The notes: generated by a model not told the origin, from the sequence alone. A stretch of DNA of 64,000 bases from Chloroflexota bacterium (GCA_013152435.1 JAADGJ010000106.1:1-64000), one strand, 5' to 3'. Positions 13,411-44,165 are shown, counted from the stretch's first letter. Made by a program: numbers and translations.

Positions 13411-13633
13411 ACGATCACGGCGGGAGATCCCGCCGCGCGTTCAGCCTCCACCCGGGAGATCCGTAAACACAACGCCTTGCGCTGCAATCCCAGCGCTCAT
13501 GAGCATAGACGTGGCAAACCGGTGAACTCTTACTCACAGAACAGGGAATGAGAGAGGTGAGGGCACACGATTATGAGGGGAGCATACTCACAAGAGGAAA
13601 ACAACCAGGAGAAGCCTCCGCCCATCTCGCTCA
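13411..13633. other. Gap upstream of DUF3179 gene
   Basis: No gene is supportable here. It must contain the DUF3179 promoter on the minus strand, but I see no convincing -35/-10 pair. A GAGGGCACACGATTATGAG segment near 13558 faintly resembles the GGGCACAC hairpins at 4149 and 4244. Confidence 0.4.
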
Positions 13634-13871
13634 GAGCATGTCTGAAAATTTACCGGCAAGATGTCTGAGGGTCTCCCTCAACCCCGGCTCCACAGGGGGA
13701 GGTGTGGAGGGAACCTCCCCTCCACGGAAATCCCACTTTTCCGGCCTGTACCTGCCTTTCTCGGCCCTTCCCGAAGGATCCAGGCCGAGGCCAGGCAGGT
13801 CGAAGGCAAAAGAAGGGCTTTTTCCGGAGGGCTCCCCACAGCAGAAGCAACGGCATTTTTCAGGCACACTC
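13634..13871. repeat. MITE-like repeat, copy B (238 bp) with TCA direct repeats
   Basis: The left end is GAGCATGTCTGAAAATTTAC; the right end read on the minus strand is GAGTGTGCCTGAAAAATG. The triplet TCA flanks both sides (13631-13633 and 13872-13874). The right-hand TCA is, on the minus strand, the TGA stop codon of the anti-sigma gene. The inside carries the same GTGGAGGG hairpin and pyrimidine/purine arms as copies A and C. Confidence 0.85.
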
Positions 13872-14159
13872 TCAGGCAACGGCTTTCAGGGCAAGAAGAA
13901 GCGCCTCGAATTCCTCTCGGCAATCGTGGCAGCGATTCAGATGATCCTGGACTAAAGGCATCGCCTCGGCCGCGTCCTTGCCGGCCAGGGTCAACTCCAC
14001 GAATCGATCCAACTGCTCGAAACACTCGTCGCAACCGATCTCATCCGGGCGCGTGGACAGGATCCCCCGGACCATCTGCCCGAGGGTCTCGGGATCGATC
14101 GGCATCCCGCCCGCGGGATCCTCCCGGCGGAAAACCTTGCGCAGCCACCGTCGAATCAT
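13872..14159 (-). CDS. Zinc-finger-type anti-sigma factor
   Basis: A 95-residue protein with a CDECFEQLDRFVELTLAG segment and a HLNRCHDC (H-x3-C-x2-C) motif. This is the zinc-binding anti-sigma pattern that precedes a helix holding the cognate sigma factor. No membrane segment is present, so it is a soluble type (redox or zinc-responsive members are known in the family). It lies 42 bp downstream of the sigma gene on the same strand and is almost certainly its partner. Its TGA stop codon is also the flanking triplet of repeat copy B, so the repeat begins directly after the gene. Confidence 0.82.
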   Translation of the reverse strand: MIRRWLRKVFRREDPAGGMPIDPETLGQMVRGILSTRPDEIGCDECFEQLDRFVELTLAGKDAAEAMPLVQDHLNRCHDCREEFEALLLALKAVA

Positions 14160-14201
14160 CTTCCTCCCCCATCGATTCAGATGCCGCGAAGCGTCCTGCT
14201 C

Positions 14202-14828
14202 TTACCCCTCCGGCGGGCCAAACGCCGTCAGCAACTCCTCCGGCGACATCCCCTCGGCGATCATGCGGCGCTTCAGCCGCTGCCGGGCGTCATGCAGAAG
14301 CTTGTACAGGGCGTTGCGGTTGGTGCCCATCCGCCGCGCCACCTCCTCCAGCGGCATCCCGTGAATCCGCACGGCGACCAGGGCCAGCCGCTGCCGCTCG
14401 GTCAGCTCCTCCCGGATCATGCGGCCGAGCATCTCCAGCAACGAATTCTGCACCGCCCGCTGCTCCGGCCCCACGGCCGGGTCGGTCAACAGGCGCGGGA
14501 CGAATCCGGCGCCGGCGGCCTTCTCCACCATCGCGTCCAGAGAGCGATCCCGCCATCGGCGGCGCCGCAGCTCCGTGAAACTCACTCGCACGGCGATCTT
14601 CTGCGCCCAGGTGGTGAAACGGCTCTCCCCCCGGAAGGAACCCAGACCGCTCAGGACCTTGAGGAGGGCCTCCTGCACAAAGTCCTCCAGGTCGGCCTCG
14701 CGCACGCCGTGGTCGGCCAGCGCGTATCCCAGCCCGCGCAGAAGGATGGCCCGCAAATCCGCCAGGGCCTCGTCACGCTGAGGCCCGCGCAGGGCGGCCA
14801 GCCACTCCTCGTTGGTGCGTTCGGCCAT
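14202..14828 (-). CDS. Sigma-70 family (ECF-like) RNA polymerase sigma factor
   Basis: 208 residues with region 2 at about 45-90 (LEDFVQEALLKVLSGLGSF; RFTTWAQKIAVR) and region 4 at about 140-192 (LTERQRLALVAVRIHGMPLEEVA, with a GTNRNALYKLLHDARQRLKR recognition helix). Region 3 is absent, so it belongs with ECF-type alternative sigmas. The start is ATG at 14828, directly after GGGGAGGGGACCTC; the open frame extends further upstream into repeats but has no family match there. A TTGCCC/TATAAT promoter lies just upstream, so the pair is read by housekeeping sigma. Partner: the downstream zinc anti-sigma. Confidence 0.9.
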   Translation of the reverse strand: MAERTNEEWLAALRGPQRDEALADLRAILLRGLGYALADHGVREADLEDFVQEALLKVLSGLGSFRGESRFTTWAQKIAVRVSFTELRRRRWRDRSLDAMVEKAAGAGFVPRLLTDPAVGPEQRAVQNSLLEMLGRMIREELTERQRLALVAVRIHGMPLEEVARRMGTNRNALYKLLHDARQRLKRRMIAEGMSPEELLTAFGPPEG

Positions 14829-14853
14829 GAGGTCCCCTCCCCAGATGAGGGGC

Positions 14854-14883
14854 ATTATAGCATGGCCGCGCTCGCGTGGGCAA
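14854..14883 (-). promoter_or_regulatory. Promoter of the sigma/anti-sigma operon
   Basis: On the minus strand, TTGCCC (14883-14878) and TATAAT (14859-14854) are 18 bases apart with an extended TGC before the -10. It is the same pair of hexamers as the 8401-8429 promoter. The leader to the ATG is about 20 nt. Confidence 0.75.
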
Positions 14884-14900
14884 TCGATGATGAAATGAGG

Positions 14901-15636
14901 CAGGAGCGCCCACGCTGCCAACAGGCCGGGCATGAGAGCCCGGTCTGCTGACATCCCACAAGCACCAAGGGAGGGCAGATTTCCATATCTGCCCTCTACC
15001 ATTGAAAGCAGCGGCAGCACCCACGCTGCCACCCGGCCAGCAGAGGCGGCTATGGAAAGCCGCCCTACTGCTATGATGTCGATCGCTCGGAACTCGTCAA
15101 CACCAAGGGAGGGCAGATTTCCATATCTGCCCTCTACCTTTGAAAGCAGCGGCAGCTCCCACGCTGCCACCCGGCCGGACGTGGAGGCCCGGCCTGTTGG
15201 CATCCCACAAGCACCAGGTGAGGGCAGATTTCCCTATCTGCCCTCACCCCCGGAAATCGTCAGGCTGCTATGATATCGATCGCTCGGAACTCGTCAGTCC
15301 GGCTCGTGGCCCAGGTGGATGACCAGTCACCCGGCCGGGCATAGGAGCACCAGGGGAGGGCAGATTTCCATATCTGCCCTCTACCCTTGAAAGCAGCGGC
15401 AGCTCCCACGCTGCCACCCGGCCGGGCATGAGAGCCCGGTCTGCTGACATCCTACAAGCGCCAGGGGAGGGCAGATTCCCATATCTGCCCTCCCCCTTGA
15501 AAGCAGTGGCAGCTCCCACGCTGCCACCCGGCCGGGCATGAGAGCCCGGTCTGTACAAGCACCAAGGGAGGGCAGTATGGCAGAGGCGGCTATGGAAAGC
15601 CGCCCTACTGCTATGATATCGATCGCTCGGAACTCG
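14901..15636. repeat. Array of palindromic modules
   Basis: Five kinds of short module recur. m1: GGGCAGAT/ATCTGCCC stems with a six-base loop, at 14973, 15111, 15222, 15358 and 15469. m2: GGCAGC/GCTGCC with a CCCAC-type loop. m3: CCGGGC/GCCCGG around ATGAGA. m4: GGCGGCT/AGCCGCC around ATGGAA. m5: a non-palindromic CTATGATATCGATCGCTCGG block followed by AACTCGTCA. The m1 start-to-start distances are 138, 111, 136 and 111 bp, so there is a higher-order pattern. No gene is supportable in it. Confidence 0.85.
15266..15326. repeat. Duplicated 3' end of the GH114 gene inside the array
   Basis: This 61-bp segment repeats 15609-15669 almost exactly. It covers the flank plus the stop codon and last ten codons of the beta-helix/GH114 gene (TCAGTCCGGCTCGTGGCCC on the plus strand). 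The copy differs at two visible positions in the coding part, then breaks off into m3 sequence. Confidence 0.85.
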
Positions 15637-17949
15637 TCAGTCCGGCTCGTGGCCCGGGTGGATGATCAGCCGATCCAGATCGCGCACGGTGACGAAGGGC
15701 ACGTACCCCTTGGCCCTCGATCTGGCGTAGGCGTCGTCCACGTGCACCGGCGTGGTGGCGTAGTCGATGGTCAGCACGAGCTTGCCGGCGCGCTTGAACA
15801 CATCCAGATACCGCTCCAACTCCGCGGTCACCTCCGGCGGCGTGGGCCGGTCGTCCCCCTCGTAGCCGTAATAGATGTCCTCCTGGCCGATGCCGTCCAC
15901 GCTGTCCAGGTATCCCGGCACCCGCGTCGCCAGTTCGGGCGCGTTCTGCACGAAGATGTAGAAATCGGGATCGCGCCGGCGGGCATGAGCGGCGATGGCG
16001 GCTACGAAGTCGACCATCTCCCGGGCGGCCGACGTGCGACCCCGATCGGCGTAATACTCGTACGCGTCGATGAGGTCCAGGTACGCGCCATCGAATCCAG
16101 CATCGAGCAACCGATCCGTATATTGAAAGATGATCGCCTGCCAGGCCGGGTCCCAGTAATGCACCTTGTAGTTGCCCGGCCAGTCGGGATTCTCCCCATC
16201 CAGCCACGGCGGGTTGCCCGGGCGCCAGTCGTCCTGCCAGTAGAAGCGGTAATCCTCCGCCTCGCCGATGCTCATGTAGGCCAGCACGATCTTCTCGCCG
16301 CCGGAGCTGTGCTTCAGCACCTCAATCTGCGCGGCCGTGAACTCGCCCGCCTCCGTCCCATCCGCGGAGTAGTCCATGATGACCAGATCATAGGCCGTCG
16401 CACCGATGGCGGCCAGGTCCAGGTTCTGGAGCTGATACAGGAAATCGTTCACCAAGGAAAGGGCGGACGACGCGGAGCCCCCGGGGCCGCGCAGGATCAC
16501 CGGCAGGAAGGCCCGGATCTCGGGCGGCCGATACTCATACGGGCCGATATCCGGCGCGCTCCCCACCGGCCGCGGGCGGCCGTCCAGGTCCCTGGGCGGC
16601 GCCCAGGCCGCGATCCCCGCGTCCACCGCGGGGCTGTCGGCCGTCAGATGGAAGTCCTTGCCGGCCGCGTTCACGAACAGCGGATCCGCGTAGGCGCTGT
16701 GCTCTCCCTGGCCGGATCGGGCGAACCAGGTGCCGTCGTTGATCTGGGCGCCGCTGAAGCAGGTGCCCGCGCCCAGGAAGTCGGCGCAGATGACGTCAGA
16801 CTCCCGATAGGGGTTGTAGTAAAGGTTGTGGTCGGCCTGGAGCCGGACGCCGGACGAGAAGAAGACCGTCGTCCCGCCCATGACCGGGTTGTCGTTATAG
16901 AAGATGGTGTTGTACAGGCGGACGGGGGTCTCCGCGGCGTAGTCGTCCTCGCCGAACACGGCCAGGTAGCCGTACGTCCGCCGGTTGGCGATCAGGCTGT
17001 TGGTGATCGTGTAGCTGCCGCCGCCGGAGAGCACCAGATTGGTCAGGCCGGCGTCCACGGCCAGCCCGTTGATCAGGCTGCTGCGCTCGCCCCATAGCTT
17101 GATGTTGTTGCGAGCGTTGTTCCGGGCGATCACCCGGCGCAGGGTGGTGCCGGTGGACTTGAAGTCGAAGCCGTCGCCCGCGTTGCCCGACGCCTCGCAG
17201 TCCTCCACCAGGATGTCGTCGCCGCGCTCGATGGCGATGCCGTCCGCGGCGGTGTCCCCGCCCCCCGAGCCGTTGTTCATGGCGCGCACGCGGCGCAGGA
17301 CCCAGTGCCTGCACGGCCCGATCCCGCAATCCATGCCCACCAACGTGTTATCGTGGATGTAGACGTCCTCCACGGTAATGTAGTCGCTGTCCTGGTAGAA
17401 CTGGATCGCGCCGGAGCCGCAATCGTAGAACTCGGCGTTCCGCACCGTGATGTGGTCGCTATCCCGCCAGGAGGTGATGCAACTGCCGTCCCCGCCCTCG
17501 TCGTGCCAGTGGCGCATGTTCAGCCCGACGATGGTGATGTGGGACACGCCGTCGCCCAGGTCGAACGCATATTTCCAATCAATGCCCTGGCCGTCTAGCC
17601 AGACCGTCTCGCCCGGGTAGGCCGCGTAGGTGATGGGCCGGCCCGGCTCGCCGGAGCGGGTCAGCCGGACGTGTTGATGGTAGACGCCGCCGCGCACGTA
17701 GACGGTATCGCCGGGCTGGAGCACGTCGGCGGCGTGTTGCAGCGTGGCCCAGGGCCGGGTCAGCGTACCGGGGTTCGCGTCATCGCCGTCGAGGGCGACG
17801 TAGTAGGTGGACCCGAGGAGGCCGGCCGAGCGCGCGGCGACGACGGGGGACGAGCCGCTCACCGGCGGCGCCGGCATGCAGGCATCCCACAGGAGGATCA
17901 GCGCCAGCAGGAGCGGAACGAGCCTGCCGGGCATTGGCCCAATCATCAC
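15637..17949 (-). CDS. Exported right-handed beta-helix / GH114 (TM1410-like) glycosidase fusion
   Basis: 770 residues. An N-terminal hydrophobic signal (LVPLLLALILLWDAC, possibly a weak lipobox) is followed by a beta-helix of about residues 48-480. The helix opens STYYVALDGDDANPGT and has repeated VRN..F..CGSGAI coils. The C-terminal ~270 residues match the GH114 / TM1410-type barrel (LVIMDYSADG, IVLAYMSIGEAEDYR, FDGAYLDLIDAYEYY, GIGQEDIYYGYEGDD). GH114 members include endo-alpha-1,4-polygalactosaminidase. The beta-helix may bind or cleave a polysaccharide. The start codon lies seven bases after the vapC stop with AGGAGG between, so it may be translated from the vapBC transcript. Its 3' end is partly duplicated in the adjacent array. 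Confidence 0.85.
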   Translation of the reverse strand: MMIGPMPGRLVPLLLALILLWDACMPAPPVSGSSPVVAARSAGLLGSTYYVALDGDDANPGTLTRPWATLQHAADVLQPGDTVYVRGGVYHQHVRLTRSGEPGRPITYAAYPGETVWLDGQGIDWKYAFDLGDGVSHITIVGLNMRHWHDEGGDGSCITSWRDSDHITVRNAEFYDCGSGAIQFYQDSDYITVEDVYIHDNTLVGMDCGIGPCRHWVLRRVRAMNNGSGGGDTAADGIAIERGDDILVEDCEASGNAGDGFDFKSTGTTLRRVIARNNARNNIKLWGERSSLINGLAVDAGLTNLVLSGGGSYTITNSLIANRRTYGYLAVFGEDDYAAETPVRLYNTIFYNDNPVMGGTTVFFSSGVRLQADHNLYYNPYRESDVICADFLGAGTCFSGAQINDGTWFARSGQGEHSAYADPLFVNAAGKDFHLTADSPAVDAGIAAWAPPRDLDGRPRPVGSAPDIGPYEYRPPEIRAFLPVILRGPGGSASSALSLVNDFLYQLQNLDLAAIGATAYDLVIMDYSADGTEAGEFTAAQIEVLKHSSGGEKIVLAYMSIGEAEDYRFYWQDDWRPGNPPWLDGENPDWPGNYKVHYWDPAWQAIIFQYTDRLLDAGFDGAYLDLIDAYEYYADRGRTSAAREMVDFVAAIAAHARRRDPDFYIFVQNAPELATRVPGYLDSVDGIGQEDIYYGYEGDDRPTPPEVTAELERYLDVFKRAGKLVLTIDYATTPVHVDDAYARSRAKGYVPFVTVRDLDRLIIHPGHEPD

Positions 17950-17956
17950 TCCTCCT

Positions 17957-18322
17957 TTAAAGCGCCGTCTGCAACTGCTCGTCGAAGGTGACGAGAGGGA
18001 TCCCCAGGGAGCGCGCCAGGTAGAGATAGGCGGCGTCGTATGTGGTCAGGCCCGTCTGCAGGGAAAGAAGCAAAACGGCCTCGTGATCCACCTCCACCCG
18101 ATGAAGATCGAGTTGGAGTCCAAGGCTCACGGCCTTAAGAAGCTCTTCCTTTTGCTCGGGATACTTCAGTATCTTCTTACGGGCGATGCGGATCAGCTCG
18201 TAGTCGAGGAGTGAGGGGGCGTAGAGATCGGATCCCTGGAGGAGGGAGAGAGCTTCCTCGGCTCTCGGTTCTCCGAAGAGCAGGGCTCCCAGGACGGAGG
18301 CATCCACGACCTTAGCGGGCAT
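17957..18322 (-). CDS. VapC-type PIN-domain toxin
   Basis: A 121-residue PIN nuclease, predicted to be an Mg-dependent RNase. The acidic residues expected of an active PIN site are all present: D7 (VVDASVL), E42 (LLDYELIRIA), D96 (TTYDAAYL) and D114 (LVTFDEQL). Length is normal. Its ATG overlaps the last 11 nt of the upstream antitoxin frame (ATGCCCGCTAA), the usual coupling in these operons. The toxin frame is intact although the antitoxin frame is broken, which is odd unless the break is a sequencing error or the antitoxin N-terminus is enough. The beta-helix/GH114 gene follows at seven bases. Confidence 0.88.
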   Translation of the reverse strand: MPAKVVDASVLGALLFGEPRAEEALSLLQGSDLYAPSLLDYELIRIARKKILKYPEQKEELLKAVSLGLQLDLHRVEVDHEAVLLLSLQTGLTTYDAAYLYLARSLGIPLVTFDEQLQTAL

Positions 18323-18531
18323 CCCGGTCCTCCCGGATCATCCGGGCCGCCTCCGACTCGGTCTGAAGCCCCAGTTCCCTGACGCGTCGATAAGCCTCCT
18401 CCAGGGTGAGCCGCCTCCTCCAGGATGGTCAGCAACTCCCCTTGCAGTGAACGATGATGACGCCTGGCCCGCTCCCGCAATCGCTCGACCAACTCCTCAG
18501 GCACGTTCTTGATGGACAGGTTGATAGCCAT
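18312..18531 (-). pseudogene. VapB/FitA-like antitoxin with a one-base frameshift
   Basis: The ATG at 18531 opens a ribbon-helix-helix-like frame, MAINLSIKNVPEELVERL, continuing RERARRHHRSLQGELLTILEEA. The expected continuation, LTLEEAYRRVRELGLQTESE then AARMIREDRDAR-stop, lies in another frame. The total of 220 nt is one more than a whole number of codons. Removing one G at 18411-18412 (GCGGCTC) restores a 72-residue antitoxin that ends in the vapC start. The break could be real, programmed or an assembly error. The N-terminal DNA-binding half is intact; the toxin-binding half is lost in the literal reading. Confidence 0.8.
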
Positions 18532-18562
18532 CGTCACCCCCGAGTGGTTCCATTTCAGATGC

Positions 18563-18591
18563 ATTATAGATCCTGCCAGGGAGTCGGTCAA
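18563..18591 (-). promoter_or_regulatory. Promoter of vapBC
   Basis: TTGACC (18591-18586) and TATAAT (18568-18563) on the minus strand have a 17-nt spacer. The leader to the vapB ATG is about 25-30 nt. An autoregulatory operator is likely here, but I see no clear palindrome. Confidence 0.75.
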
Positions 18592-18714
18592 GCCACTGTC
18601 TTCAGCGGTGATGACTCGCATCTCACCGCGGAGTCGCAGAGGGCACTGAGGAGGGAAGATAAAGAGAGCCGCTCATAAGAATAGGCAACACCCGCTTCCT
18701 AAAAAGCGTGTTTT

Positions 18715-18742
18715 GTAGGGGCGACGCATGCGTCGCCCCTAC
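18715..18742. repeat. Perfect 28-bp palindrome
   Basis: GTAGGGGCGACG, CATG, CGTCGCCCCTAC is a perfect inverted repeat with no mismatches, flanked by TTTT on the left. It lies downstream of the metal-transport permease gene (minus strand) and upstream of vapB. It may act as a hairpin terminator or be a dispersed palindromic repeat. Nearby, at about 18620, CACCGCGGAGTCGCAGAGG resembles another intergenic sequence near 44033. Confidence 0.7.
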
Positions 18743-18794
18743 CGTGAGGAAATCGCCTGTGTTACCGAGGCGTGGCCGGATCGGCCGGGTGGGA

Positions 18795-19661
18795 TTACGA
18801 GGAGGCCTGCCGATCGCGCAGCCGCTGCCATACCAGGCCGCGGCCGGGCGCCAACAGGAACGCCAGCAGGAACAGCGCCGTGCAGGTGAGCACGATGGCC
18901 GATCCCGACGCGATGTTCATGTAGTACGACAGGTACAGGCCGACGACGCCCGAGCCCGCCCCGATGAGCGCGCCCAGCACCATCATGACGGGCAACCTTC
19001 GGGTGAGCATATAGGCCGTGGCCGCCGGCGTCACCAGCATGGCCACCATCAGGGCGATGCCAACCGTCTGCAACGAGACGACGATGGTGATCGCGATCAT
19101 GACCAGCAACAGATGGCGGAGGAAGGTGTCCGGCAGCCGCAATGTCTCCGCCAGGATCGGGTCGAAGGAGATCACCAGGAACTCCTTGTAGAAGGCCAGT
19201 ACCAGGAGCAGGACGAGCCCACCGAAGATCGCCGTCAGATACAGGTCCGCGTCGGTCACGCCCAACACGTTCCCGAAGAGGAAGTGGGTCAAATCCACCG
19301 TGTAACTGCGCACGGACGAGATCAATGCGATCCCCAAGGCGAACATGCCGGCGAACAGGATGCCGATGGCCGTGTCCTCCTTGATCTGCCCCCCGCGGGT
19401 GATGGCGCCGATCCCCAACGCGGTCCCCACGCCGGCCACCAGGCCGCCCCAGAACAGCGGCCCCTGCGCGCCGCCCCCCAGCAGGTAGGCGATCGCGACC
19501 CCCGGCAGGATGGCGTGGGCCAGCGCGTCCCCCAGGAAGGCCATCCCGCGCAGCACAACGTAGGTGCCGACCACCGCACACACGGTGCCCACCAGGATGG
19601 CGGCCGCGAGGCCCCGGATCATAAAGGTGTAGCGCAACGGCTCGATCAACCACTCAAACAT
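18795..19661 (-). CDS. Zinc/manganese ABC transporter, permease
   Basis: A 288-residue inner-membrane permease of the ABC-3 (ZnuB/MntB/TroC) family with about eight or nine hydrophobic segments. Family signatures include CAVVGTYVVLRGMAFLGDAL, HAILPGVAIAYLLGG and MLVTPAATAYMLTRRLP. It forms the channel with the ATPase encoded upstream, whose gene it overlaps by eight bases. Metal (zinc or manganese) cannot be told from the permease alone; linkage to a Fur-family regulator suggests zinc. It ends the four-gene regulator-transporter operon. Confidence 0.92.
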   Translation of the reverse strand: MFEWLIEPLRYTFMIRGLAAAILVGTVCAVVGTYVVLRGMAFLGDALAHAILPGVAIAYLLGGGAQGPLFWGGLVAGVGTALGIGAITRGGQIKEDTAIGILFAGMFALGIALISSVRSYTVDLTHFLFGNVLGVTDADLYLTAIFGGLVLLLVLAFYKEFLVISFDPILAETLRLPDTFLRHLLLVMIAITIVVSLQTVGIALMVAMLVTPAATAYMLTRRLPVMMVLGALIGAGSGVVGLYLSYYMNIASGSAIVLTCTALFLLAFLLAPGRGLVWQRLRDRQASS

Positions 19662-20517
19662 GATCCGCCCCCGGGCTACAGCAGGTATCGGGCACGACCA
19701 TCGTGCCCTGCTCGGTGTTCAGCGTCGTGAGCCGACCGCCATATGCCGCCGCGAGGTGGGTGAGATCCAACACCTCTTCGGCGCGCCCGATGGCGATCAG
19801 CCGCCGGTTCAGCAGCAGGATGCGATCGAACCGATCGGCCGCCTGGCTGAGATCGTGAGTGGAGATCAGGACCGTGACCTCCCGCTCCCGCAACTGGTCG
19901 AGGACGTGCAGGAGGGCCTCCTGCGAGGGCATGTCCAACCCGGTGAACGGCTCGTCCATCAGCAGGATCTCCGCCTCCTGGGCCAGCGCCCGGGCAATGA
20001 AGATCCGCTGCTGCTGCCCGCCGGAGAGCTCGCCGATCTGGCGATCAGCCATCTCCTCCATGCCCACCAGCCGCAGGCTCTCATGGACGATCTCCCAATC
20101 CCTGCGACGCGGCCATCGCAGCAGCCCCAACCGGCTCACCCGCCCCATCATCACCACATCGGCCACAGTGACGGGGAAGGACCAGTCCACCTGGTTCCGC
20201 TGCGGCACATAGGCGATGCAGATGTGGCCGCCCGGCTCGTGGCCGTAGATATCCACCCGGCCGGACGTGGGGTGCAGGATGCCAGCGATCACCTTGAGAA
20301 GCGTGCTCTTCCCCGCGCCGTTGGGCCCCACGACCGCCACCCGCTCGCCCCGCTGCAGGGTGAAGCTGATGTCCTCCAGGACGGGCGATCCACCGTTGTA
20401 GCGCACGGTGACGTTCGTCAGCCGAATGACCGGCTCGGCCTCCCGATGCGGAACCGGTCGCTGGAAAAGCTGCGTGATCCCCACGCCAGAACCCTTCCCT
20501 CTCCCTCGTCTGCTCAT
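19654..20517 (-). CDS. Zinc/manganese ABC transporter, ATP-binding protein
   Basis: A 287-residue ABC ATPase. Walker A is GPNGAGKST (about 72-80), the signature is LSGGQQQRIFIARALAQ, Walker B is ILLMDEPFTGLD, and the switch histidine is ISTHDL. The first ~28 residues (SRRGRGKGSGVG) are an unusual basic extension; a start nearer VIRLTNVTVRY is conceivable, but the ATG used here overlaps the substrate-binding protein stop by four bases (ATGA), typical of coupled genes. It energises uptake with the permease downstream. Confidence 0.92.
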   Translation of the reverse strand: MSRRGRGKGSGVGITQLFQRPVPHREAEPVIRLTNVTVRYNGGSPVLEDISFTLQRGERVAVVGPNGAGKSTLLKVIAGILHPTSGRVDIYGHEPGGHICIAYVPQRNQVDWSFPVTVADVVMMGRVSRLGLLRWPRRRDWEIVHESLRLVGMEEMADRQIGELSGGQQQRIFIARALAQEAEILLMDEPFTGLDMPSQEALLHVLDQLREREVTVLISTHDLSQAADRFDRILLLNRRLIAIGRAEEVLDLTHLAAAYGGRLTTLNTEQGTMVVPDTCCSPGADHV

Positions 20518-21527
20518 GAACGGGTCAACCCCTTCACAATGGTCTCCACATTCGTACGCATCATGCCGATGTAGTCCTCCGCGCCGCTCCCCGGCTCCCC
20601 CAACGACCCAATGTAAAGCGACAGCACGCGAACGCCCGCCTCCTTCGCCAGCACCTGGGTCATGCGAGGGTTCGTCGTCCGCCCGACGAAGACGGCCGGC
20701 ACCCCCGCCTCGCGCACCTGAGCCGTCAGCCTGGCCAGGTCAGAGGCGGAGGGCTCGGCGACGGTGCTGAAGCCGGGGATCACCGCGCCGATGACCTGGA
20801 ATCCGTAGCGGGCGGCGAAGTAGCCGAACGCCAGGTGATCGGTGACCAGCTTACGCCGCTCCGGCGGGATGCGCTCCACCTGCTCACGGATGTACGCGTC
20901 CAGCTCTCGCAACTGCTGACGATACGCCTCCGCCCGCGTCGCGTAGTCGGACGCGTGGGCCGGATCCAGGGCGGACAGCGTGCCCTCGATGTTGTCCACC
21001 CACACGAGGACGTTGTTGGGATCGAACCAGGTATGGGGGTCCGGCCGACCCGACTCCCCGTGCTCCGAGGAGTTCATCGTCAGCGTCTGCACGCCCGCGG
21101 ATACCGGCACCACCGGCTGGCCGCGATCGGCGGCCGCCCGGATGGTCCGCTCCAGCCCCTCCTCGAGCCCCAGGCCGTTGATGAAGATCACATGCGCCTC
21201 CGAGATGGCGGCGATGTCCCTGGCCGTCGGCTCGTAGCTATGGGGATCCTGTCCCGGCCCCATGAGCACCGTCAGATCGATGAGGTCGCCCCCCACATGC
21301 GCCACCACATCGCCGACGATGCTCGTGCTGGCCACCACGTGCAGCCTCTCCCCATCCTCCAGCGCCACCGGCGTCAGCGTCGGCAGAGCCTCCTGGCCGC
21401 CCTCCTCGGCTTCTCCCGCCGCCTCCGTCGGCGCAGGTCCCGCCTTCTCCCCGGAGGCGCACCCCGCCACCCACACCATGCCGATTAATAAAATGAGCAA
21501 CAGAGCCCGATACACGGACCGCGATCC
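20514..21527 (-). CDS. Zinc/manganese ABC transporter, substrate-binding lipoprotein
   Basis: A 337-residue ZnuA/TroA-type (cluster A-I) binding protein. The signal ends in a lipobox (WVAGC), then comes an Ala/Glu/Pro-rich linker. Metal-site motifs are present: DPHSYEPT, DPHTWFDPN, VTDHLAFGYFA and later acidic residues. The internal MNSSEHGESG stretch takes the place of the His-rich loop of zinc-specific members and is short. The start is ATG at 21527 (MGSRSVY), since the longer frame would overlap the regulator gene and add nonsense before the signal. It is eight bases downstream of the Fur-family gene, so co-transcribed. Confidence 0.92.
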   Translation of the reverse strand, partial: GSRSVYRALLLILLIGMVWVAGCASGEKAGPAPTEAAGEAEEGGQEALPTLTPVALEDGERLHVVASTSIVGDVVAHVGGDLIDLTVLMGPGQDPHSYEPTARDIAAISEAHVIFINGLGLEEGLERTIRAAADRGQPVVPVSAGVQTLTMNSSEHGESGRPDPHTWFDPNNVLVWVDNIEGTLSALDPAHASDYATRAEAYRQQLRELDAYIREQVERIPPERRKLVTDHLAFGYFAARYGFQVIGAVIPGFSTVAEPSASDLARLTAQVREAGVPAVFVGRTTNPRMTQVLAKEAGVRVLSLYIGSLGEPGSGAEDYIGMMRTNVETIVKGLTRS

Positions 21528-21535
21528 CATGATGT

Positions 21536-21985
21536 TCAACTCTCCCGGATATTCTGGCACTCATGACACAGCCCGAAGAACTCCACCAGGTGCCCCGTGA
21601 TCCGGAACCCGGAGGAGGCGGCCACCTCCTCCGCGAGCTCGACCAGCGGGCACTCGGGCAGCTCGACCATGGAGCCACAGTGTGTGCAGATCACGTGGTG
21701 ATGATGCCCTCCCCGCACGACCATGTACCGTTGCTCCCCCTTGCCCAACGGGAGGGGACGCAACAACCCCAGCAGGACCATCTGATGGATGGTGCGAAAG
21801 GTCGTCGCCCGCCCCAACGGCCGGTACAAGGAACGGGCCCTCTCCCATATCTCCTGGGTGCTCAGATGCCCGGGATACTCGCTCAGCACCTGCACGATGG
21901 CGAGACGGGGACGGGTGAGCTTCAACCCGTGTTTCGCCAGTTGCTTCGCCAGCGGCAGATCAGCCGCACTTCGATGATCCCACAT
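21536..21985 (-). CDS. Fur-family metalloregulator (Zur-like)
   Basis: A 149-residue repressor with an N-terminal winged helix (LTRPRLAIVQVLSEYPGHLS, with ATTFRTIHQMVLLGLL as recognition region) and a C-terminal dimerisation domain. Metal ligands are HHHHVICTHCG (structural CxxC), LPECPL and the final FFGLCHEC (second CxxC). Two CxxC pairs indicate a structural zinc site. Location upstream of znuA-C-B-type genes suggests zinc control; Mur or Fur is possible. A 7-1-7 Fur-type box sits in its own promoter, so autoregulation of the operon is likely. Confidence 0.9.
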   Translation of the reverse strand: MWDHRSAADLPLAKQLAKHGLKLTRPRLAIVQVLSEYPGHLSTQEIWERARSLYRPLGRATTFRTIHQMVLLGLLRPLPLGKGEQRYMVVRGGHHHHVICTHCGSMVELPECPLVELAEEVAASSGFRITGHLVEFFGLCHECQNIRES

Positions 21986-22000
21986 CGCCCCATCCGTAAA

Positions 22001-22052
22001 TGATACTCAATCTCAGTACATCGAGTATAACACAGGGGCAGGGAAGGCACAA
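22001..22052 (-). promoter_or_regulatory. Promoter and Fur-type operator of the metal-transport operon
   Basis: On the minus strand, TTGTGC (22052-22047), a 17-base spacer, and TATACT (22029-22024) form a promoter. Immediately downstream, TGAGATTGAGTATCA (22015-22001) is a 7-1-7 inverted repeat (TGAnAnT-n-AnTnTCA) like Fur/Zur boxes. A bound repressor would cover the transcription start. Confidence 0.65.
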
Positions 22053-22160
22053 ATACGCTGGCGACGTCGGGCCCTTCGTGGCAGTGGGTCGATGCTGCGC
22101 CTATGTCGGCATCGCCCCATCCCCGCCGGGGCCCAGAACGGTTACGGCGTCCCCCCTTCT

Positions 22161-22189
22161 TTGACACCTTCTCCGTTTTGTAATAGAAT
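22161..22189 (+). promoter_or_regulatory. Promoter of the nuo operon
   Basis: TTGACA at 22161-22166, a 17-base spacer, then TAGAAT at 22184-22189. The leader to nuoA is about 80 nt. It is the strongest -35 in this part of the window and the only promoter seen ahead of nuoA. Confidence 0.8.
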
Positions 22190-22278
22190 GCACGAAATTT
22201 CGAGGGAATAGGGAAAGGGATCGAGGTGCCAGCCGTCTCTCTTTCGGCGCGGCCGGCGCTATCACTATGGGAGGGAAC

Positions 22279-22635: not shown

Positions 22636-22802
22636 CGCCCACCAGCGCCTGCCGGGCGTTTTCCACCGGCAGTTGGATCTGACCTCACCGCCTCGATCCA
22701 TATCGCTCAGAGCGAAACAACCGATTGCATATCCTACCCGATCAGGGTTGACGACGCCGACGGGACGAAAGTTTTGTCAGAGGAGCTCAACCGAAGCCGG
22801 AG

Positions 22803-23399: not shown

Positions 23400-23402
23400 A
23401 CC

Positions 23403-31990: not shown

Positions 31991-31994
31991 GCCC

Positions 31995-32513: not shown

Positions 32514-32516
32514 GGG

Positions 32517-32819: not shown

Positions 32820-32825
32820 TCTCCC

Positions 32826-32872: not shown

Positions 32873-32893
32873 AGCGAGGAAGCGTAAGGGACT

Positions 32894-34780: not shown

Positions 34781-34823
34781 GTGCGGGAAGCCACAGGAGA
34801 TCAGAGATCGGAGACGGAGACTT

Positions 34824-36332: not shown

Positions 36333-36436
36333 AGGGCGAACATGCCGGACATGGAGGACGGCAGATCGCACACGATCGTACCCAATCGCCGTGTTTGATT
36401 CCTGCACGTTGCACGCCTGAGAACAGGTGAACCCGT

Positions 36437-37864
36437 ATGGATAGCATTCAAGTTTCGCTCGTTCCCGTGTTACCCGAAGTCATCCTTCTGGTCACCGCCA
36501 TCGCGGTCCTGGCCGTGGACACCCTCATCGGCGACAAGCGGTGGCTGACGTGGGTCGGCCTGCTGGGGGTCGTCCTGGCCGGGGGCGCCGCGTACAGGCT
36601 GGCATCCCAGCCCCCGCAGGACTTCCAGGGGATGGCCGTATCCGACGCGTATACGGCGTTCTTCCGCCTCATCATCTTCACCGCCACCGGCCTGGGCCTG
36701 CTGGTGGCGATGAACTGGCTGGACGCCCACGGCGAGCAGCAGGGGGAATACAACGGATTGCTCTTGCTGGCAGCCCTCGGCATGACATTGATGGCCGCGG
36801 CCACGCACCTGGTGCTGGTCTTCGTCGCCCTGGAGGTGCTCTCCCTGAGCCTGTATATCCTGGCCGGCTTCGAGCGTGAGCGGGCGACTTCCGGAGAGGC
36901 CGCGCTGAAGTACCTGTTGCTGGGCGCCTTCTCCTCGGCCTTCTTCCTCTACGGAATCGCGCTGGTGTACGCGGGCACGGGAGCGCTGGATTTCGCCGGC
37001 ATCGCGCAGGCCGCCTCCCTCACGCCCACCTTCCTGATCGGCATCGCGCTGCTGATCGTGGGCTTTGGGTTCAAGGTGGCCGCCGTCCCCTTCCACATGT
37101 GGACGCCGGATGTGTACCAGGGCGCGCCAACCCCCATCACGGCGTTCATGTCGGTGGGGGCCAAGGCGGCCGGGTTCGCCGCCTTCCTGCGCCTCTTCAC
37201 GGGGGCGCTTCAGGCCGGCAGGGCGACGTGGGTGCCCGCGATCGCGGCGCTGGCGGTGCTCACCATGACGGTGGGCAATCTGGCCGCGCTGCGACAGAGC
37301 AGCCTCAAGCGTATGCTGGCCTACTCCTCCATCGCCCACGCGGGCTACATCCTGATCGGCCTGGCCGCGGCCAACGCCAGCGGCGTGGCCGCCGTGCTCT
37401 TCTACCTCTTCGTGTACGCCTTCATGAACATCGGCGCGTTCGCCGTCGTCATCGCCCTGGAACGCCAGGGGGAGGGGGACGTGCTGGCCGACCAGGCCCG
37501 GGGCCTGGCCCGGTCCCACCCCGTACTGGCGGCGGCCATGGCGATCTTCATGCTCGCCCTGACCGGGATCCCCCCTCTGGCGGGGTTCTTCGGCAAGCTC
37601 TACCTGTTCCAGGCGGCCGTGGAGGCGGACCTCGCCTGGCTGGCCATCGTCGGGGTGATCAACTCGGCCATCTCCGCCTACTACTACCTGCGCGTGGTGG
37701 TGGCCATGTACATGTCCGAGGAGGAGGTCCCACCGACGGTGGCCTGGCGACCGGTCCTGGCGGTGGTCACCGGGATCGCGGCCCTGTTGGTCATCATCAT
37801 CGGGCTGTACCCGGGGGTGTGGCTGGACCTGGCCCAGCGCGGTATCCAGGCCATCCTGGGGTGA
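36437..37864 (+). CDS. nuoN: NADH-quinone oxidoreductase subunit N
   Basis: A 475-residue antiporter-like subunit and the last gene of the operon. Motifs are LVFVALEVLSLSLYILAGFE (channel Glu), FHMWTPDVYQGAPTPITAFM and KRMLAYSSIAHAGYILIG. It follows nuoM after 104 bp, in which I see no gene. A strong bidirectional hairpin follows at 37892. Confidence 0.96.
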   Translation: MDSIQVSLVPVLPEVILLVTAIAVLAVDTLIGDKRWLTWVGLLGVVLAGGAAYRLASQPPQDFQGMAVSDAYTAFFRLIIFTATGLGLLVAMNWLDAHGEQQGEYNGLLLLAALGMTLMAAATHLVLVFVALEVLSLSLYILAGFERERATSGEAALKYLLLGAFSSAFFLYGIALVYAGTGALDFAGIAQAASLTPTFLIGIALLIVGFGFKVAAVPFHMWTPDVYQGAPTPITAFMSVGAKAAGFAAFLRLFTGALQAGRATWVPAIAALAVLTMTVGNLAALRQSSLKRMLAYSSIAHAGYILIGLAAANASGVAAVLFYLFVYAFMNIGAFAVVIALERQGEGDVLADQARGLARSHPVLAAAMAIFMLALTGIPPLAGFFGKLYLFQAAVEADLAWLAIVGVINSAISAYYYLRVVVAMYMSEEEVPPTVAWRPVLAVVTGIAALLVIIIGLYPGVWLDLAQRGIQAILG

Positions 37865-37891
37865 TCCCCCGCAGATCATTACGACAACAAA

Positions 37892-37921
37892 AGGGCCTCT
37901 GTCAGCTAAGACAGAGGCCCT
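37892..37921. terminator. Bidirectional terminator between nuoN and trxB
   Basis: AGGGCCTCTGTC (37892-37903), loop AGCTAA, GACAGAGGCCCT (37910-37921); a perfect 12-bp stem. On the minus strand it is followed by TTTGTTGTCG, a better T tract than on the plus strand, so it best terminates trxB but can also end the nuo operon. Confidence 0.88.
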
Positions 37922-37947
37922 GGTGATTTCATCGGGATCAGCACCGG

Positions 37948-38919
37948 CTACGAGGCCAGCGCCTCCTCCTTGATCCCCTCGTACGTGCGGTCCTCCAGCT
38001 CGGCGATGAACTTCTCCGCCTCCATCGCCGCCGCACATCCCTGTCCCACGGACGTGGCGACCTGTCGGAAGATCCGATCCTGGATCTCGCCGGCGGCGAA
38101 CACGCCGGGCACGCTGGTATGTCCACGCTTATCGGTGATCACATAGCCCAGATCGTCCATCTCCAGCTGGCCTACGAAGAGCTCGCTGTTGGGCACGTGG
38201 CCGATGTAGATGAAGACGCCGTCGGTCTTGAGCTCGCTCACCTCTCCCGTCTTCACGTTCTTCAACGTGACCGACTGGACCATGCTGTCGCCGTTGATCG
38301 ATGTGACCACCGAGTTCCAGATGAACTCGATCTTGTCATTGGCAAACGCGCGACGCTGGAGCACCTGGCTGGCGCGCAGTTGATCACGGCGATGAACGAT
38401 GCGCACCTTGGAGGCGAAGCGGGTCAGGAAGATTCCTTCCTCCAGCGCGCTGTCCCCCCCACCTACGACCACGATCTCCTTTCCACGGAAGAAGAAGCCA
38501 TCGCAGGTGGCGCAATAGGAGACGCCTCGCCCGGTGAACTCCTGCTCTCCCGGCACGCCCAGCTTACGCGGCGTGGCACCTGTCGCCACGATCACGGCTT
38601 TGGCCGCGTATTGCTTCCCGCTGGAGGTCTCCACCACAAAGGGATGCCGCTGGAAATCCACCTTCGTCACGTAATCATACTCAATGCGGCAGCCGAACTT
38701 CTCCGCCTGTTGCTGCATGCGCTCCACCAGCTCAGGGCCGGTGACCCCCTCCGGAAACCCGGGGTAGTTCTCCACCTCGTTCGTGATGGACACCTGACCG
38801 CCCACCTCGTTGCCGGTGAACAGCAAAGGGTTCAGCTCCGCCCGGGCCGTATACAGCCCGGCCGTGAGCCCTGCCGGTCCGCTACCGATGATGATGACGT
38901 TCTCCACCTGCTCGCTCAT
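37948..38919 (-). CDS. trxB: Thioredoxin reductase
   Basis: A 323-residue FAD/NADPH disulfide reductase of the low-molecular-weight class. FAD motif [17 protein letters not shown], active-site CATC in [18 protein letters not shown] motif [10 protein letters not shown] followed by HRRDQLRA, and the C-terminal FAD contact [12 protein letters not shown] are all present. The ATG at 38919 ([11 protein letters not shown]) is chosen because GAGGAGAAAGAG precedes it; an open extension of 34 codons upstream lacks family similarity. It reduces thioredoxin in the cytoplasm. rsmE, prmA and dnaJ lie upstream on the same strand. Confidence 0.94.
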
Positions 38920-39010
38920 CTCTTTCTCCTCGCCATGAAAATTCGCAATAGGATCCCATCTTTTTCTCATCGCAATCCACGATGCCCACCCGACCCGGCT
39001 GCCGGAACGA

Positions 39011-39763
39011 CTACGCCGCATGGACGCCCGGCGGCGCCAGCTCGCCCGCGTGGTACATCACCAGGGCCACGGCCACGATGGCAGCCGTCTCCGCACGCAA
39101 CGTGCGCGGCCCCAGCGAGAAGGGGAGGAGCCCCTGGGCCCTCGCCAGCGCCACCTCCTCCGGCGTGAATCCGCCCTCCGGGCCGATCAACAGGGCCACG
39201 TCGCCCGGCCGGTCGGTGAACAGGGAGTCCAGAGAGCGCTGCGATTCCCCCGCCCAGCCGATCAGGCCCAGATCAGCCGTGGCCGCCTGCTGACAGGCGG
39301 CCGCAAACGTCACCGGCTCCACGATCTGGGGGACGCGGGCCCGGCCGCACTGCTCGGCGGCCTCCTGCGCGATGCGCTCCCACCGGGCCATCCGGTGAGA
39401 CGAGAGGGGGAGATCACGAACCACGGTCCGCTCGGTGACCATCGGCACGAAGCGGGCCACGCCCAACTCGGTCCCCTTCTGCACGATCCACTCAAAGCGA
39501 GAGCCCTTGATCAGCGCGGCGTACAGGACCAACGAGACACGGGGCTCACCGGTCGCATCCTCCCGTCCGACCACCCGGCCGACGGCCTCATCCCGCTCCA
39601 CACGCTGCAGGGTCACGCGATAGAGCGAGCCCCGCCCGTCCAGCACGGCCACCATGTCGCCCGGCCGTAACCGGAGCACCCGGGCCATCTGCCGCGCCGC
39701 GGGTTTCGGGAAACGGACCTGTCCCTGCCGGATCGCCTCGGGGGGCACAAAGAAACGATGCAT
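39011..39763 (-). CDS. rsmE: 16S rRNA (uracil1498-N3)-methyltransferase
   Basis: A 250-residue SPOUT methyltransferase. N-terminal PUA-like domain ([19 protein letters not shown]...HVLRL-type motif seen as [11 protein letters not shown]), then the trefoil-knot domain with [16 protein letters not shown] and [19 protein letters not shown] at 39763 overlaps the TGA of prmA by one base (TGATG), a common prmA-rsmE arrangement. An open extension of 26 codons inside prmA is not part of the protein. Confidence 0.93.
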
Positions 39764-40665
39764 CAGCCTGCATCCGGGGCCCGAGCCGCCAGCGCAGCCC
39801 AGTCGCCCTCCTCCTGCTGCTCCAACACGCGCAATCCACACGACGTGATGGCCGAGACCACATCGTCCACCTGTGAGGTGAGCATCCCGGAGGTGATCAA
39901 GACGCCGTTCGCCTTCAACCGATCGGCCAAACCGTCCGCCAACAGTTTGATGACGACATCGGCCAAAATGTTACACAGGATCAGATCATAGCGGCCCTCC
40001 GGGGGGAGGGCTCCCATGGTGACCTGGATCCGATCGCTCAGGCCATTGCGCTCCGCGTTCTCCCGGGTCGCCTGGACCGCAGCCGGATCGATATCCCGGG
40101 CGTGAACCCGGGCAGCGCCCAGTTTGGCGGCCGCCAGGGAGAGGATGCCGGATCCCGAGCCCTGGTCCAGGACGCAGATCCCCGGGCGAAGGTAGCGCTC
40201 CAACAGCCTCAGACAAAGACGTGTGGTCGGGTGTAGCCCGGTGCCGAACGCCATGCCCGGGTCGAGCTCGATCACCACGTCGTTCGGGGAGGGCTCCCAG
40301 GCGTGCCAGCTCGGCTTGATCACCAGGCGAGCTCCAACGCGCAACGGCTGGAACTGGGATTTCCAGCCGTCGATCCAGTCCTCCTGGGCCAACTCCCGAA
40401 ACTGGGGCTCAGGGATCGGATAGATCTGCCCCAGATGCCAAAGGCCCTCCTCCACGCGCTGCCGGATCGCATCCACGCGCTCGTCGATCGGCAGATAGGT
40501 CTTCACGACGACGGAGGAGTCTTTGAGCTCGCCGCGAGCGTCGTATCCATTGATCTCGACCACCGCGCCGCCGTTGCCCTCCGGAGGAGCGAACCGATTG
40601 AACAGCTCACAGACGGCCTCGGCTGCCTCCTGGTCCACGCGAACGCTGATCTCCAGCCACCTCAT
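39763..40665 (-). CDS. prmA: Ribosomal protein L11 methyltransferase
   Basis: A 300-residue class I SAM methyltransferase that modifies L11. The N-terminal substrate-recognition domain is followed by the SAM motif VLDQGSGSGILSLAAAKLGA (about 170-190) and the post-I acidic residue in ARDIDPAAVQ. DLILCNILADVV matches the PrmA NPPF-like segment (N-I-L-A). Immediately followed by rsmE and 11 bp downstream of dnaJ on the same strand, so dnaJ-prmA-rsmE is a conserved transcription unit. Confidence 0.94.
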   Translation of the reverse strand: MRWLEISVRVDQEAAEAVCELFNRFAPPEGNGGAVVEINGYDARGELKDSSVVVKTYLPIDERVDAIRQRVEEGLWHLGQIYPIPEPQFRELAQEDWIDGWKSQFQPLRVGARLVIKPSWHAWEPSPNDVVIELDPGMAFGTGLHPTTRLCLRLLERYLRPGICVLDQGSGSGILSLAAAKLGAARVHARDIDPAAVQATRENAERNGLSDRIQVTMGALPPEGRYDLILCNILADVVIKLLADGLADRLKANGVLITSGMLTSQVDDVVSAITSCGLRVLEQQEEGDWAALAARAPDAG

Positions 40666-40676
40666 CGCTCGCCGGC

Positions 40677-41858
<1,182 letters not shown>

Positions 41859-41939
41859 TCACAAACTCAGCCCCCCTATCGTTATCACATACGGAACGAG
41901 ACGGGGGGCTCATACTGCTATACCGGACAAACCGCTAGC

Positions 41940-41968
41940 ATCATACGTCAAGATCTGTTGTTTGTCAA
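41940..41968 (-). promoter_or_regulatory. Promoter of dnaJ-prmA-rsmE
   Basis: On the minus strand, TTGACA (41968-41963), a 17-base spacer, then TATGAT (41945-41940). The leader is about 100 nt. No heat-shock-type inverted repeat was recognised. Confidence 0.8.
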
Positions 41969-42029
41969 TGTGGCAAAAGTCCGCTATTTCCGCCGAAACA
42001 GGCGCATCTTCCACGCCGCGATGGTGTAT

Positions 42030-42215
42030 CCTTTTCGGTGGAAACGCGGCAGGAGCCTTGAGGGGCACACCCCCTCAAAAGAAACCTCCCGGTTTCCGCC
42101 TCTCACCCGCCTCGACCGACCTCGTCCACCCGAATCAGGCCGGGAAAGGGCAGGTGCCAGGCAGAGAAGAGGGTGATTGGGCGGAGGGAGGTCCTTCCGC
42201 ATCTCCCTTGAGGGC
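42030..42215. repeat. Diverged hairpin-bearing repeat in the dnaJ/flavodoxin gap
   Basis: TTGAGGGGCACACCCCCTCAA is a hairpin here, described as stems GAGGGG and CCCCTC. It is followed by CTCTCACCCGCCTCGACC, then GGGAAAGGGCAGGTGCCAGG and a GGGAGG/CCTTCC pair. The order (hairpin, pyrimidine arm, purine arm, hairpin) parallels the repeats at 11872 and 43776, but sequence identity is low. The gap 41835-42340 otherwise holds the dnaJ promoter and, near 42304, a weak TACACT -10 for the flavodoxin gene. Confidence 0.45.
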
Positions 42216-42340
42216 TTGCGATGAGGTCGCGGGTCGTCTCGCGGAATTCCCACCATTTTGGATACACTATCGCGCCCACCGGGCAAGAGCATCGCAGATA
42301 TGGTACACTATGTAGGATCCTAAGTCAGTGAGGAGGGAAC

Positions 42341-42895
42341 ATGAACGTGATCGTGCTCAGCTCCAGTCCAAATCGAGATGGCCTGACGGCAGCCTGCGCG
42401 GCCGCGGCGGTAGAAGGCATCCGCCAGGCCGGCGGCCAGGCCGAAGAGGTACGGCTCAACGACCTGGACATCGGATTGTGCCAGGCATGTGGCAACGGCT
42501 GGGGAACCTGTCTGAACGAGCATGAATGCCAGGAAGAGGACGATTTCCAACCCCTGCACGCTCGCGTCCGGGGGGCGGATGCGCTGGTCCTGGTCACCCC
42601 GGTCTACTGGGGGGATCTGAGCGAGTCCGCGAAGGCGTTCACGGACCGGCTGCGACGATGTGAGGCGCCCCGGCGGGAGGAAAGCGCCCTCTTCGGGAAG
42701 CCGGTCATCGCCGTGGCAGCCGCTGGCGGCAGCGGCGGCGGCATGATCACCTGTCTGCTGAGCATGGAACGCTGGATCCAGCACATCCGGGCCCGCGTGT
42801 TCGATCTCATCCCGGTGAACCGCTGGAGCCGAGACTACAAGCTGGTGGCGATCCGGGAGGCCGCCCGGGCGATGGCGGAGGAGTTGATGTCCTGA
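42341..42895 (+). CDS. Flavodoxin-family NAD(P)H-dependent FMN reductase-like protein
   Basis: 184 residues. N-terminal phosphate loop SSSPNRDGLTAACAAAA binds FMN phosphate, and VTPVYWGDLSESAKAFTDR is the second flavin contact. A cysteine cluster CQACGNGWGTC...EC (C-x2-C-x6-C-x5-C) follows residue ~45 and resembles the motif of iron-sulfur flavoproteins, though spacing differs from the published compact motif. GGGMITCLLSMERW is near the C-terminus. AGTGAGGAGGGAAC precedes ATG. It may supply redox equivalents in the following sugar cluster; role unproven. Confidence 0.82.
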   Translation: MNVIVLSSSPNRDGLTAACAAAAVEGIRQAGGQAEEVRLNDLDIGLCQACGNGWGTCLNEHECQEEDDFQPLHARVRGADALVLVTPVYWGDLSESAKAFTDRLRRCEAPRREESALFGKPVIAVAAAGGSGGGMITCLLSMERWIQHIRARVFDLIPVNRWSRDYKLVAIREAARAMAEELMS

Positions 42896-42923
42896 GGGCT
42901 CCGTCGCGGGGAGGGGGTTTGCG

Positions 42924-43775
42924 ATGCGCACATTTGGATTTCTGGCCTCTCTGGACTTCTCCAGCTGGAGGCCTGAGGAGGTCGTTCGTGAGCTGGGCTA
43001 CCAGGCCGTGGAATGGCCGCTGGATCACTATCACCCTCAGCGGAAGGGACGCGATGCGCTGTCCCATCTGGTGAAGGTGTCGGCCGAGGCCGGGCTGGAG
43101 GTATCGGAGGTCGTCGCACAGCATGACATACTGACGCCGGACAGGGACCTGCATCGCACCCGCCTGAACCTGGTGCGGGAATGCATCCAGGTGGCCGGAG
43201 ATGCGGGGGTACAGGTCGTCAACGTATTCACCGGGCCGGCCCCCTGGGATCCCCAGGCGCCCAGGCTGGGGGTGGACATCAGCGAGGGGGAGGCCTGGGA
43301 CATCCTGCAGCGGGCCTTCGACGAACTGGTGCCGCTGGCCGAGCGCTCGGGTGTCTACCTGGCCGTCGAGGCCGTGTTCGGGCATCTGGCCCACGACTAC
43401 TACACCGTCCAGGAGCTTCTGCGGCGCTACGACAGCCCCCATCTGGGGATCAACATGGACCCCTCCCACTACCGCCTCTACGACAACGACGTCCCGTGGG
43501 TCATCCGACAGCTTGGCCCCCGCATCTACCACGTCCACCTCAAGGACGTGATCGGTCGGCCGGGCGTGCACGGCCGGGATTTCATGTTCCCCATGCTGGG
43601 CGAGGGGATGATCGACTGGGAGGCGTTCGCGTCGGCCCTCGACGAGGTAGGGTACACGGGGGCGCTCTCGGTGGAGTTCGAGTCGTTCACCTACTACCGG
43701 ACCGTCCTCAAGGGCGATCCGGCGAAGGCCGCGGCCATCAGCATGGAACAGATCCGGGCGCTGTTCCCGGCCTAG
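42924..43775 (+). CDS. Sugar phosphate isomerase/epimerase family protein (AP-endonuclease-2-like barrel)
   Basis: A 283-residue TIM-barrel protein. Metal-ligand motifs typical of the family are YLAVEAVFGHLAHD (Glu), NMDPSHYRLY (Asp/His), YHVHLKDVIGRPG (His-x-His) and ALSVEFESFTYY (Glu). Such proteins isomerise or epimerise sugars, inosose or hydroxypyruvate. It starts 28 bp after the flavodoxin-family gene. Its TAG stop codon is also the 3-bp repeat flanking repeat copy C, so the element abuts the coding end exactly. Substrate unknown; neighbours suggest sugar or polyol catabolism. Confidence 0.87.
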   Translation: MRTFGFLASLDFSSWRPEEVVRELGYQAVEWPLDHYHPQRKGRDALSHLVKVSAEAGLEVSEVVAQHDILTPDRDLHRTRLNLVRECIQVAGDAGVQVVNVFTGPAPWDPQAPRLGVDISEGEAWDILQRAFDELVPLAERSGVYLAVEAVFGHLAHDYYTVQELLRRYDSPHLGINMDPSHYRLYDNDVPWVIRQLGPRIYHVHLKDVIGRPGVHGRDFMFPMLGEGMIDWEAFASALDEVGYTGALSVEFESFTYYRTVLKGDPAKAAAISMEQIRALFPA

Positions 43776-44014
43776 GAGTGTGTCTGAAATTTACCGGCAA
43801 GGTGCCTGAGGGGGCTCCCTCAGCTACCAGCCCCACAGGGGGAGGTGTGGAGGGGGCCTCCCCTCCACGGAAATCCCACTTTTCCGGCCTGCACCTGCCT
43901 TTCTCGGCCCTTCCCGAAGGACCCGGGCCGAGGCCGGGCAGGTCGAAGGCAGAAGAGGGACTTTTTCCGGGGGGCTCCCCACAGCAGAAGCAACGGCATT
44001 TCTCAGACGCGCTC
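43776..44014. repeat. MITE-like repeat, copy C (239 bp) with TAG direct repeats
   Basis: It starts GAGTGTGTCTGAAATTTACC and ends, on the minus strand, GAGCGCGTCTGAGAAATG. TAG flanks both ends (43773-43775 and 44015-44017); the left TAG is the stop codon of the upstream gene. Internal hairpins GTGGAGGGGG/CCTCCCCTCCAC and pyrimidine/purine arms are as in the other copies. After it, 44030-44095 carries an ACCGCAGAGACGCC...GGCGGTG inverted repeat. Confidence 0.88.
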
Positions 44015-44165
44015 TAGGGGATACTGACAAACCGCAGAGACGCCGGGGGCGCGGAGAATTGAGCATCTCCACGCTCTCTGCGCCTCGGCGGTGCATCTTC
44101 ATCATCAAACTCCTAGCCTTCACTGCACATGAAAGTGCCCAACCAGATTTGGGCAGGAGGCGACC

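Follow-up and report, generated by a model that had tools for sequence, protein, structure and literature searches.

An IS5/IS1031-type MITE family whose TNA target, with selection against insertions in genes, probably accounts for most of its insertions at stop codons

Introduction

Members of the IS1031 group, which belongs to the IS5 family, are known to target the triplet 5'-TNA-3' and to leave a 3-bp repeat of it (PMC12016507). Among the shorter mobile elements of bacteria, the MITEs Chunjie (235 bp, 38 full copies) and QMITE2 of Coxiella have been reviewed (PMC10969869). In eukaryotes, the NuwaII group of the PHIS (PIF/Harbinger) superfamily, whose DDE lineage is related to IS5, cuts its target as C|TNA|G (PMC4482050).

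Here, we describe a repeat family of a Chloroflexota draft genome and compare it with these systems. Like the IS1031 group, it has terminal repeats of ~15–17 bp that begin with GA(G/A) and a 3-bp TNA duplication (PMC12016507), whereas the element is geneless and ~250 bp long, as against ~850 bp. Its likeness to Chunjie and QMITE2 lies in a size of ~180–240 bp, in tens of full and many partial copies and in the intergenic location (PMC10969869); it differs in having ends of its own and a target that is defined as C|TNA|G, the comparison covering size, copy number and location. With the eukaryotic NuwaII it has only the target palindrome in common, and no common descent of the elements is claimed.

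Results

Copies of the repeat in the window

The window, by which we mean the whole stretch of DNA analysed, is 64 kb long and is part of contig 106; the draft genome comprises 149 contigs and totals 4.97 Mb. The features relevant to this work are as follows.

95–136, minus strand: isolated left-end stub of the MITE, ~40 bp
1614–1872, minus strand: MITE copy A, flanks TAA/TCA, 21 bp past the stop of an M20 peptidase gene (219–1592)
13631–13633: left target duplication of copy B, TCA (direct reading)
13634–13871, plus strand: MITE copy B, 238 bp, ends GAGCATGTCTGAAAA ... CAGGCACACTC, both intact (profile alignment and nhmmer)
13872–13874: right target duplication of copy B, TCA, which on the minus strand is the TGA stop of the 95-aa gene
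13872–14159, minus strand: 95-aa gene (gene call, translation), Cys-containing, adjoining the sigma-70-type gene; putative anti-sigma factor
14202–14930, minus strand: sigma-70-type gene, neighbour of the 95-aa gene
42924–43775, plus strand: xylose isomerase-like TIM-barrel gene of the sugar isomerase/epimerase type (Pfam PF01261, E=5.7e-38), its end abutting copy C
43773–43775, plus strand: left target duplication of copy C, TAG, the stop codon of gene 42924–43775; the stop here is TAA in the relative G001
43776–44014, plus strand: MITE copy C, 239 bp, missing from the orthologous site in G001
44015–44017: right target duplication of copy C, TAG
63856–64111, minus strand: MITE copy D, flanks TCA/TTA, intergenic; the window edge is at 64000 and the rest lies beyond it on the contig

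The sequence-only reading had described copies B and C as bounded by TCA/TCA and TAG/TAG, with the gene-side triplet serving as the stop of the neighbouring gene. Both observations held for both copies at the positions listed. Of the four window copies placed, A and D are not located at a gene stop. A Pfam search of the 95-aa gene gave no match.

A cluster of a different repeat, with units of ~60–149 bp containing GGCAGCTCCCACGCTGCCACCCGGCCGGGCATGAGAGCCCGG, occupies 14852–15669, between the sigma-factor-type gene and the gene at 15637–17949; a sequence similar to it also flanks a MITE copy elsewhere (locus L013, contig C15).

Ends, copy number and target of the family

The element is 240–260 bp long, contains no gene and is bounded by inverted terminal repeats, GAGYGTGTCTGAAAA, as is characteristic of a MITE. 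A 17-base pattern of the left end had 163 matches in the genome as against 32 for the reversed control, and a 22-base pattern of the right end had 132 as against 0. With ~130 right ends in 4.97 Mb, this is a dispersed, high-copy family, as MITEs are. We examined 120 stretches around the end matches and built a profile from 29 copies, which identified 94 full-length copies in these stretches. Mean pairwise difference among 25 aligned copies was 14%, with a minimum of 5%.

Tabulating the flanks of the 94 copies, as the earlier reading had proposed, bore out its claim of a triplet duplication: the 3-bp flanks were identical in 45 of them, and TNA made up 141 of the 188 flank triplets as against 3.1% of background trinucleotides. 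From the joined flanks of 43 copies having identical triplets and intact ends (both strands read, symmetrised), we obtained an empty-site logo of C-TNA-G, in which T and A each stood at 97% and the flanking C and G at 71%. As judged from these joined flanks, the duplicated target is the 3-bp TNA within a C|TNA|G palindrome. The MITE family is real and well defined; its properties are of the IS5/IS1031 type, and it stays within the known kind of MITE.

Several contigs, including C25, C70, C76 and C87, end inside or beside a MITE copy; the repeat therefore seems to break the assembly, and the true copy number may be higher. At one locus (L128, C112:20408–20892), two MITE copies are arranged in tandem with a common triplet between them, the outer left flank lying on the stop of a gene. 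As CTC-TNA-GAG, the ends of the element are similar to its target CTNAG, a likeness that could favour nested insertion. Many loci (for example the left flank of L026, the right flank of L027 and 2400–2446 of L154) carry a further repeat family, probably another MITE subfamily, whose ends are likewise GAG..GTGTCTGAAAAA but whose interior resembles CACACCACGAAGCCACTAAGACACC.

Candidate mobilising transposase

From the ends and the target, it is very probable that the repeat is a non-autonomous MITE and that a transposase of the IS5 family, IS1031 type (NCBIfam IS5_3), moves it in trans. The properties by which the IS1031 group is recognised were found here, namely ends starting with GAG/GAA and the TNA duplication, and close relatives carry IS5-type transposases with matching ends. 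IS5_3 genes (DUF4096 plus DDE transposase) occur in relatives from this genus and class behind GAGNNTGTCTGAAAA-like ends with TNA flanks. In the same-genus relative G001, CTTA|GAGTGTGTCTGAATATTT stands ahead of an IS5_3 (DUF4096) transposase gene on contig C190, which starts inside the element, so that the second end is unseen. The IS on contig C56 of G018 is 837 bp long, with 16-bp ends that match perfectly, GAGCCTGTCTGAAAAG, and flanks TTA/TTA; its transposase gene is broken. G040 has an 874-bp IS with ends GAGGGTGTTTAAGAA and flanks TAA/TAA. The IS5_3 model was run on the proteins of G001, G017 and G050, and the other transposases were found by DUF4096.

In this draft genome, searches with PF01609 and PF13340 found no intact IS with the exact ends of the MITE, so the partner is inferred; it may have disappeared, may be concealed where contigs break off or may be located elsewhere. 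An autonomous partner in the same genome is usual for an active MITE family, but an old one need not have it. Pairing the end repeats at 600–4000 bp in 0.9 Mb of the genome gave few pairs, some of them bracketing separate MITE copies, and none was recognised as one element. Among the at least 80 loci listed for the end sequence in named genomes, no autonomous IS was found, the pairs with identical TNA flanks being all MITE-sized. The only two elements that the PF01609 and PF13340 searches gave were considered as the partner and rejected: an unrelated IS5 element on C67, which is the only DUF4096 element of this genome, has different ends, GAGCCTGTTATGCAC, and the ends of an IS701-type element on C12 also differ. 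This IS701-family element, with ends GCTCGACTTTGTACG (L043/L154, C12:129922–131900), lies directly beside a 358-bp MITE copy and was apparently inserted at the TAA of its TAAG flank.

MITEs with GAGCGTGTCTGAAAAWT ends and TNA duplications were also present, among the matches listed, in Chloroflexota, Verrucomicrobiota, a gammaproteobacterial MAG and Methanosarcina. Those of other phyla, compared by length and by the sequence adjacent to the ends, differ in length (72–301 bp) and in this part of the interior. Likewise among the matches listed, TNA-GAGYGTGTCTGAAAAWT ends (L185–L264) occur across many phyla, including Lachnospiraceae, Verrucomicrobiota, Chloroflexota, Desulfobacteraceae and Methanosarcina, and several of these loci bound MITEs of 72–301 bp with identical TNA flanks.

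Empty sites in a relative

Among 30 relatives, the element was found only in G001 (one copy, 78% identity), together with a weak match in G021, which points to an expansion particular to this lineage within the genomes searched. The orthologous G001 site of copy C, aligned at 86% identity across 807 columns, lacks the element and reads GGCC-TAA-GGGGATAC, with one stop codon; by comparison, TAG occurs twice in the window genome, which is also one base shorter here. Most simply, one base changed first and the element then inserted, which would give an off-consensus TAG target. It is also possible that the target was TAA and that two changes followed.

An insertion on the stop of another gene (C75:7205) likewise corresponds to an empty G001 site with a single TTA. 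At C13:34604, the G001 sequence is conserved across the insertion point and has a single TGA, and at the sites on C143, C87 and C102 the insert is also absent. No region of G001 orthologous to copy B was found. The duplication and the empty sites in a relative thus agree with what is expected of a MITE. One copy of the triplet stands at the empty sites of copy C, C75:7205 and C13:34604 in the relative.

Insertions at stop codons

The transposase would make a 3-bp staggered cut around TNA, the excised MITE would be joined at the cut, and host repair would duplicate the triplet. If the TNA struck is a gene's own stop, the gene side would keep a stop and the protein would be unchanged. Insertions within genes would be purged, while those at stops or elsewhere between genes would persist. 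Every TNA (TAA, TGA, TCA, TTA) is a stop triplet on one strand, and insertions on stops are therefore expected fairly often. The figure of 1 in 4096 given earlier for a chance match of both triplets is wrong, as the expected share of insertions falling exactly on a gene stop is ~8–12% once TNA targeting is allowed for and coding sequence is excluded.

Genes were called with a simple Markov-model gene finder once the elements had been excised from the sequences (calls unreviewed). We then compared the insertions with all usable TNA sites, the element remains being masked. Coding sequence held 2 of 83 insertions as against an expectation from ~75% of the available sites (P ~1e-46), and 69 of the 83 were ordinary intergenic insertions. 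In the first test, 10 of 67 non-coding insertions were on a stop, where 6.2 (TNA) to 7.8 (exact CTNAG) were expected (P 0.09–0.24; 0.24 with the exact-CTNAG null). After addition of 14 end-paired elements, the count was 12 of 81 as against 6.4–6.6 (P 0.025–0.032), and in the subset with identical TSDs it was 10 of 54 as against 4.3–4.4 (P 0.009–0.012); these versions are not independent of each other. A null without masking (11 of 69 as against 7%) was discarded as falsely strong, masking having raised the null to 8–12%. As the tests are dependent and the gene calls unreviewed, we read the excess as at most roughly two-fold and possibly none. The coincidence with stops is largely the product of the TNA target and of purifying selection against insertions in genes.

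The sequence-only reading had left two options. Targeting of TNA-like triplets with best survival outside genes is supported by the C-TNA-G empty sites, the near absence from coding sequence and the single triplets in the relative. The other option, that the transposition machinery or the element prefers stop contexts beyond the choice of TNA, for example the transcribed or translated 3' end of a gene, could draw on the excesses in the enlarged test and its identical-TSD subset. However, this excess vanishes with the exact-CTNAG null, most insertions are ordinary intergenic ones, and the end facing the gene within 100 bp of a stop is not consistent (21 versus 18). Moreover, the excess would equally arise if insertions at 3' ends survived modestly better, and the gene calls were made in this analysis. 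We therefore consider a stop preference highly improbable, and the element is an ordinary MITE, not one hunting stop codons. It may also be asked whether chance alone, acting on ordinary intergenic insertions, produced the coincidence seen in the window, a reading compatible with the MITE explanation. Two of four window copies on stops has a probability of ~0.04–0.07 at 8–12% per insertion; copies B and C had been singled out at the first reading, and the genome-wide excess is marginal. On the other hand, that excess, though weak, has the same direction in every version of the test, and we hold pure chance to be a serious possibility of somewhat less than even probability. The genome-wide copies did not lack both triplet duplication and any enrichment at stops, which had been named as the outcome telling against the sequence-only reading, but the significance of the coincidence had been greatly overstated.

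Selection on the RNA would offer another account, in which the element is retained for its function as a hairpin in the 3' UTR (a terminator, an mRNA stabiliser or an RNase III site) and the stop-adjacent copies are those selected. Copies B and C do fold far better than shuffled sequence (z −4.3 for the minus strand of copy B and −5.8 for the plus strand of copy C), yet both strands form the hairpin because the ends and the interior are inverted repeats, as in any MITE. Covariation was slight, with any double change in 7 of 62 pairs and a term of −1.42 of −66.5 kcal/mol (25 copies). A simple scan found no terminator-like site inside copy C, and an Rfam search of the element gave no match. Orientation to genes is not fixed, and the insertions over upstream and downstream flanks were distributed much like random TNA sites. 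There is no sign of selection on the RNA in the fold, covariation, Rfam and terminator results, and we regard a functional hairpin as highly improbable, slightly more so than a stop preference. Inverted ends and internal palindromes, of which it would be a by-product, give the best account of the large hairpin.

A second in-frame stop at the element ends

In the frame set by the TNA, both ends read GAG-YGT-GTC-TGA, which places a second in-frame TGA four codons in; the gene ending at copy C reads ...LFPA*ECV*, with its second stop four codons on. The end sequence accounts for this second stop, for which no adaptation need be invoked. One may speculate that a C|TNA|G-targeting IS5-type transposase makes gene stops a self-preserving safe harbour, where the duplicated triplet would regenerate the stop, both ends would supply a second TGA (TNA-GAG-YGT-GTC-TGA), and the rate at which stops are struck or kept would be about double that of other usable sites. 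We consider this unlikely.

Discussion

These observations illustrate that, with a target as short and partly degenerate as TNA, insertions at stop codons look designed when they are largely to be expected. They also extend the IS5/IS1031 picture by a MITE family that is high in copy number, expanded in this lineage and well defined in its C|TNA|G target. As NuwaII, a eukaryotic relative of IS5, is reported to have the same target, target choice may be compared across domains. The many copies, together with a relative that has empty sites, make this a natural data set in which target preference and selection could practicably be told apart.
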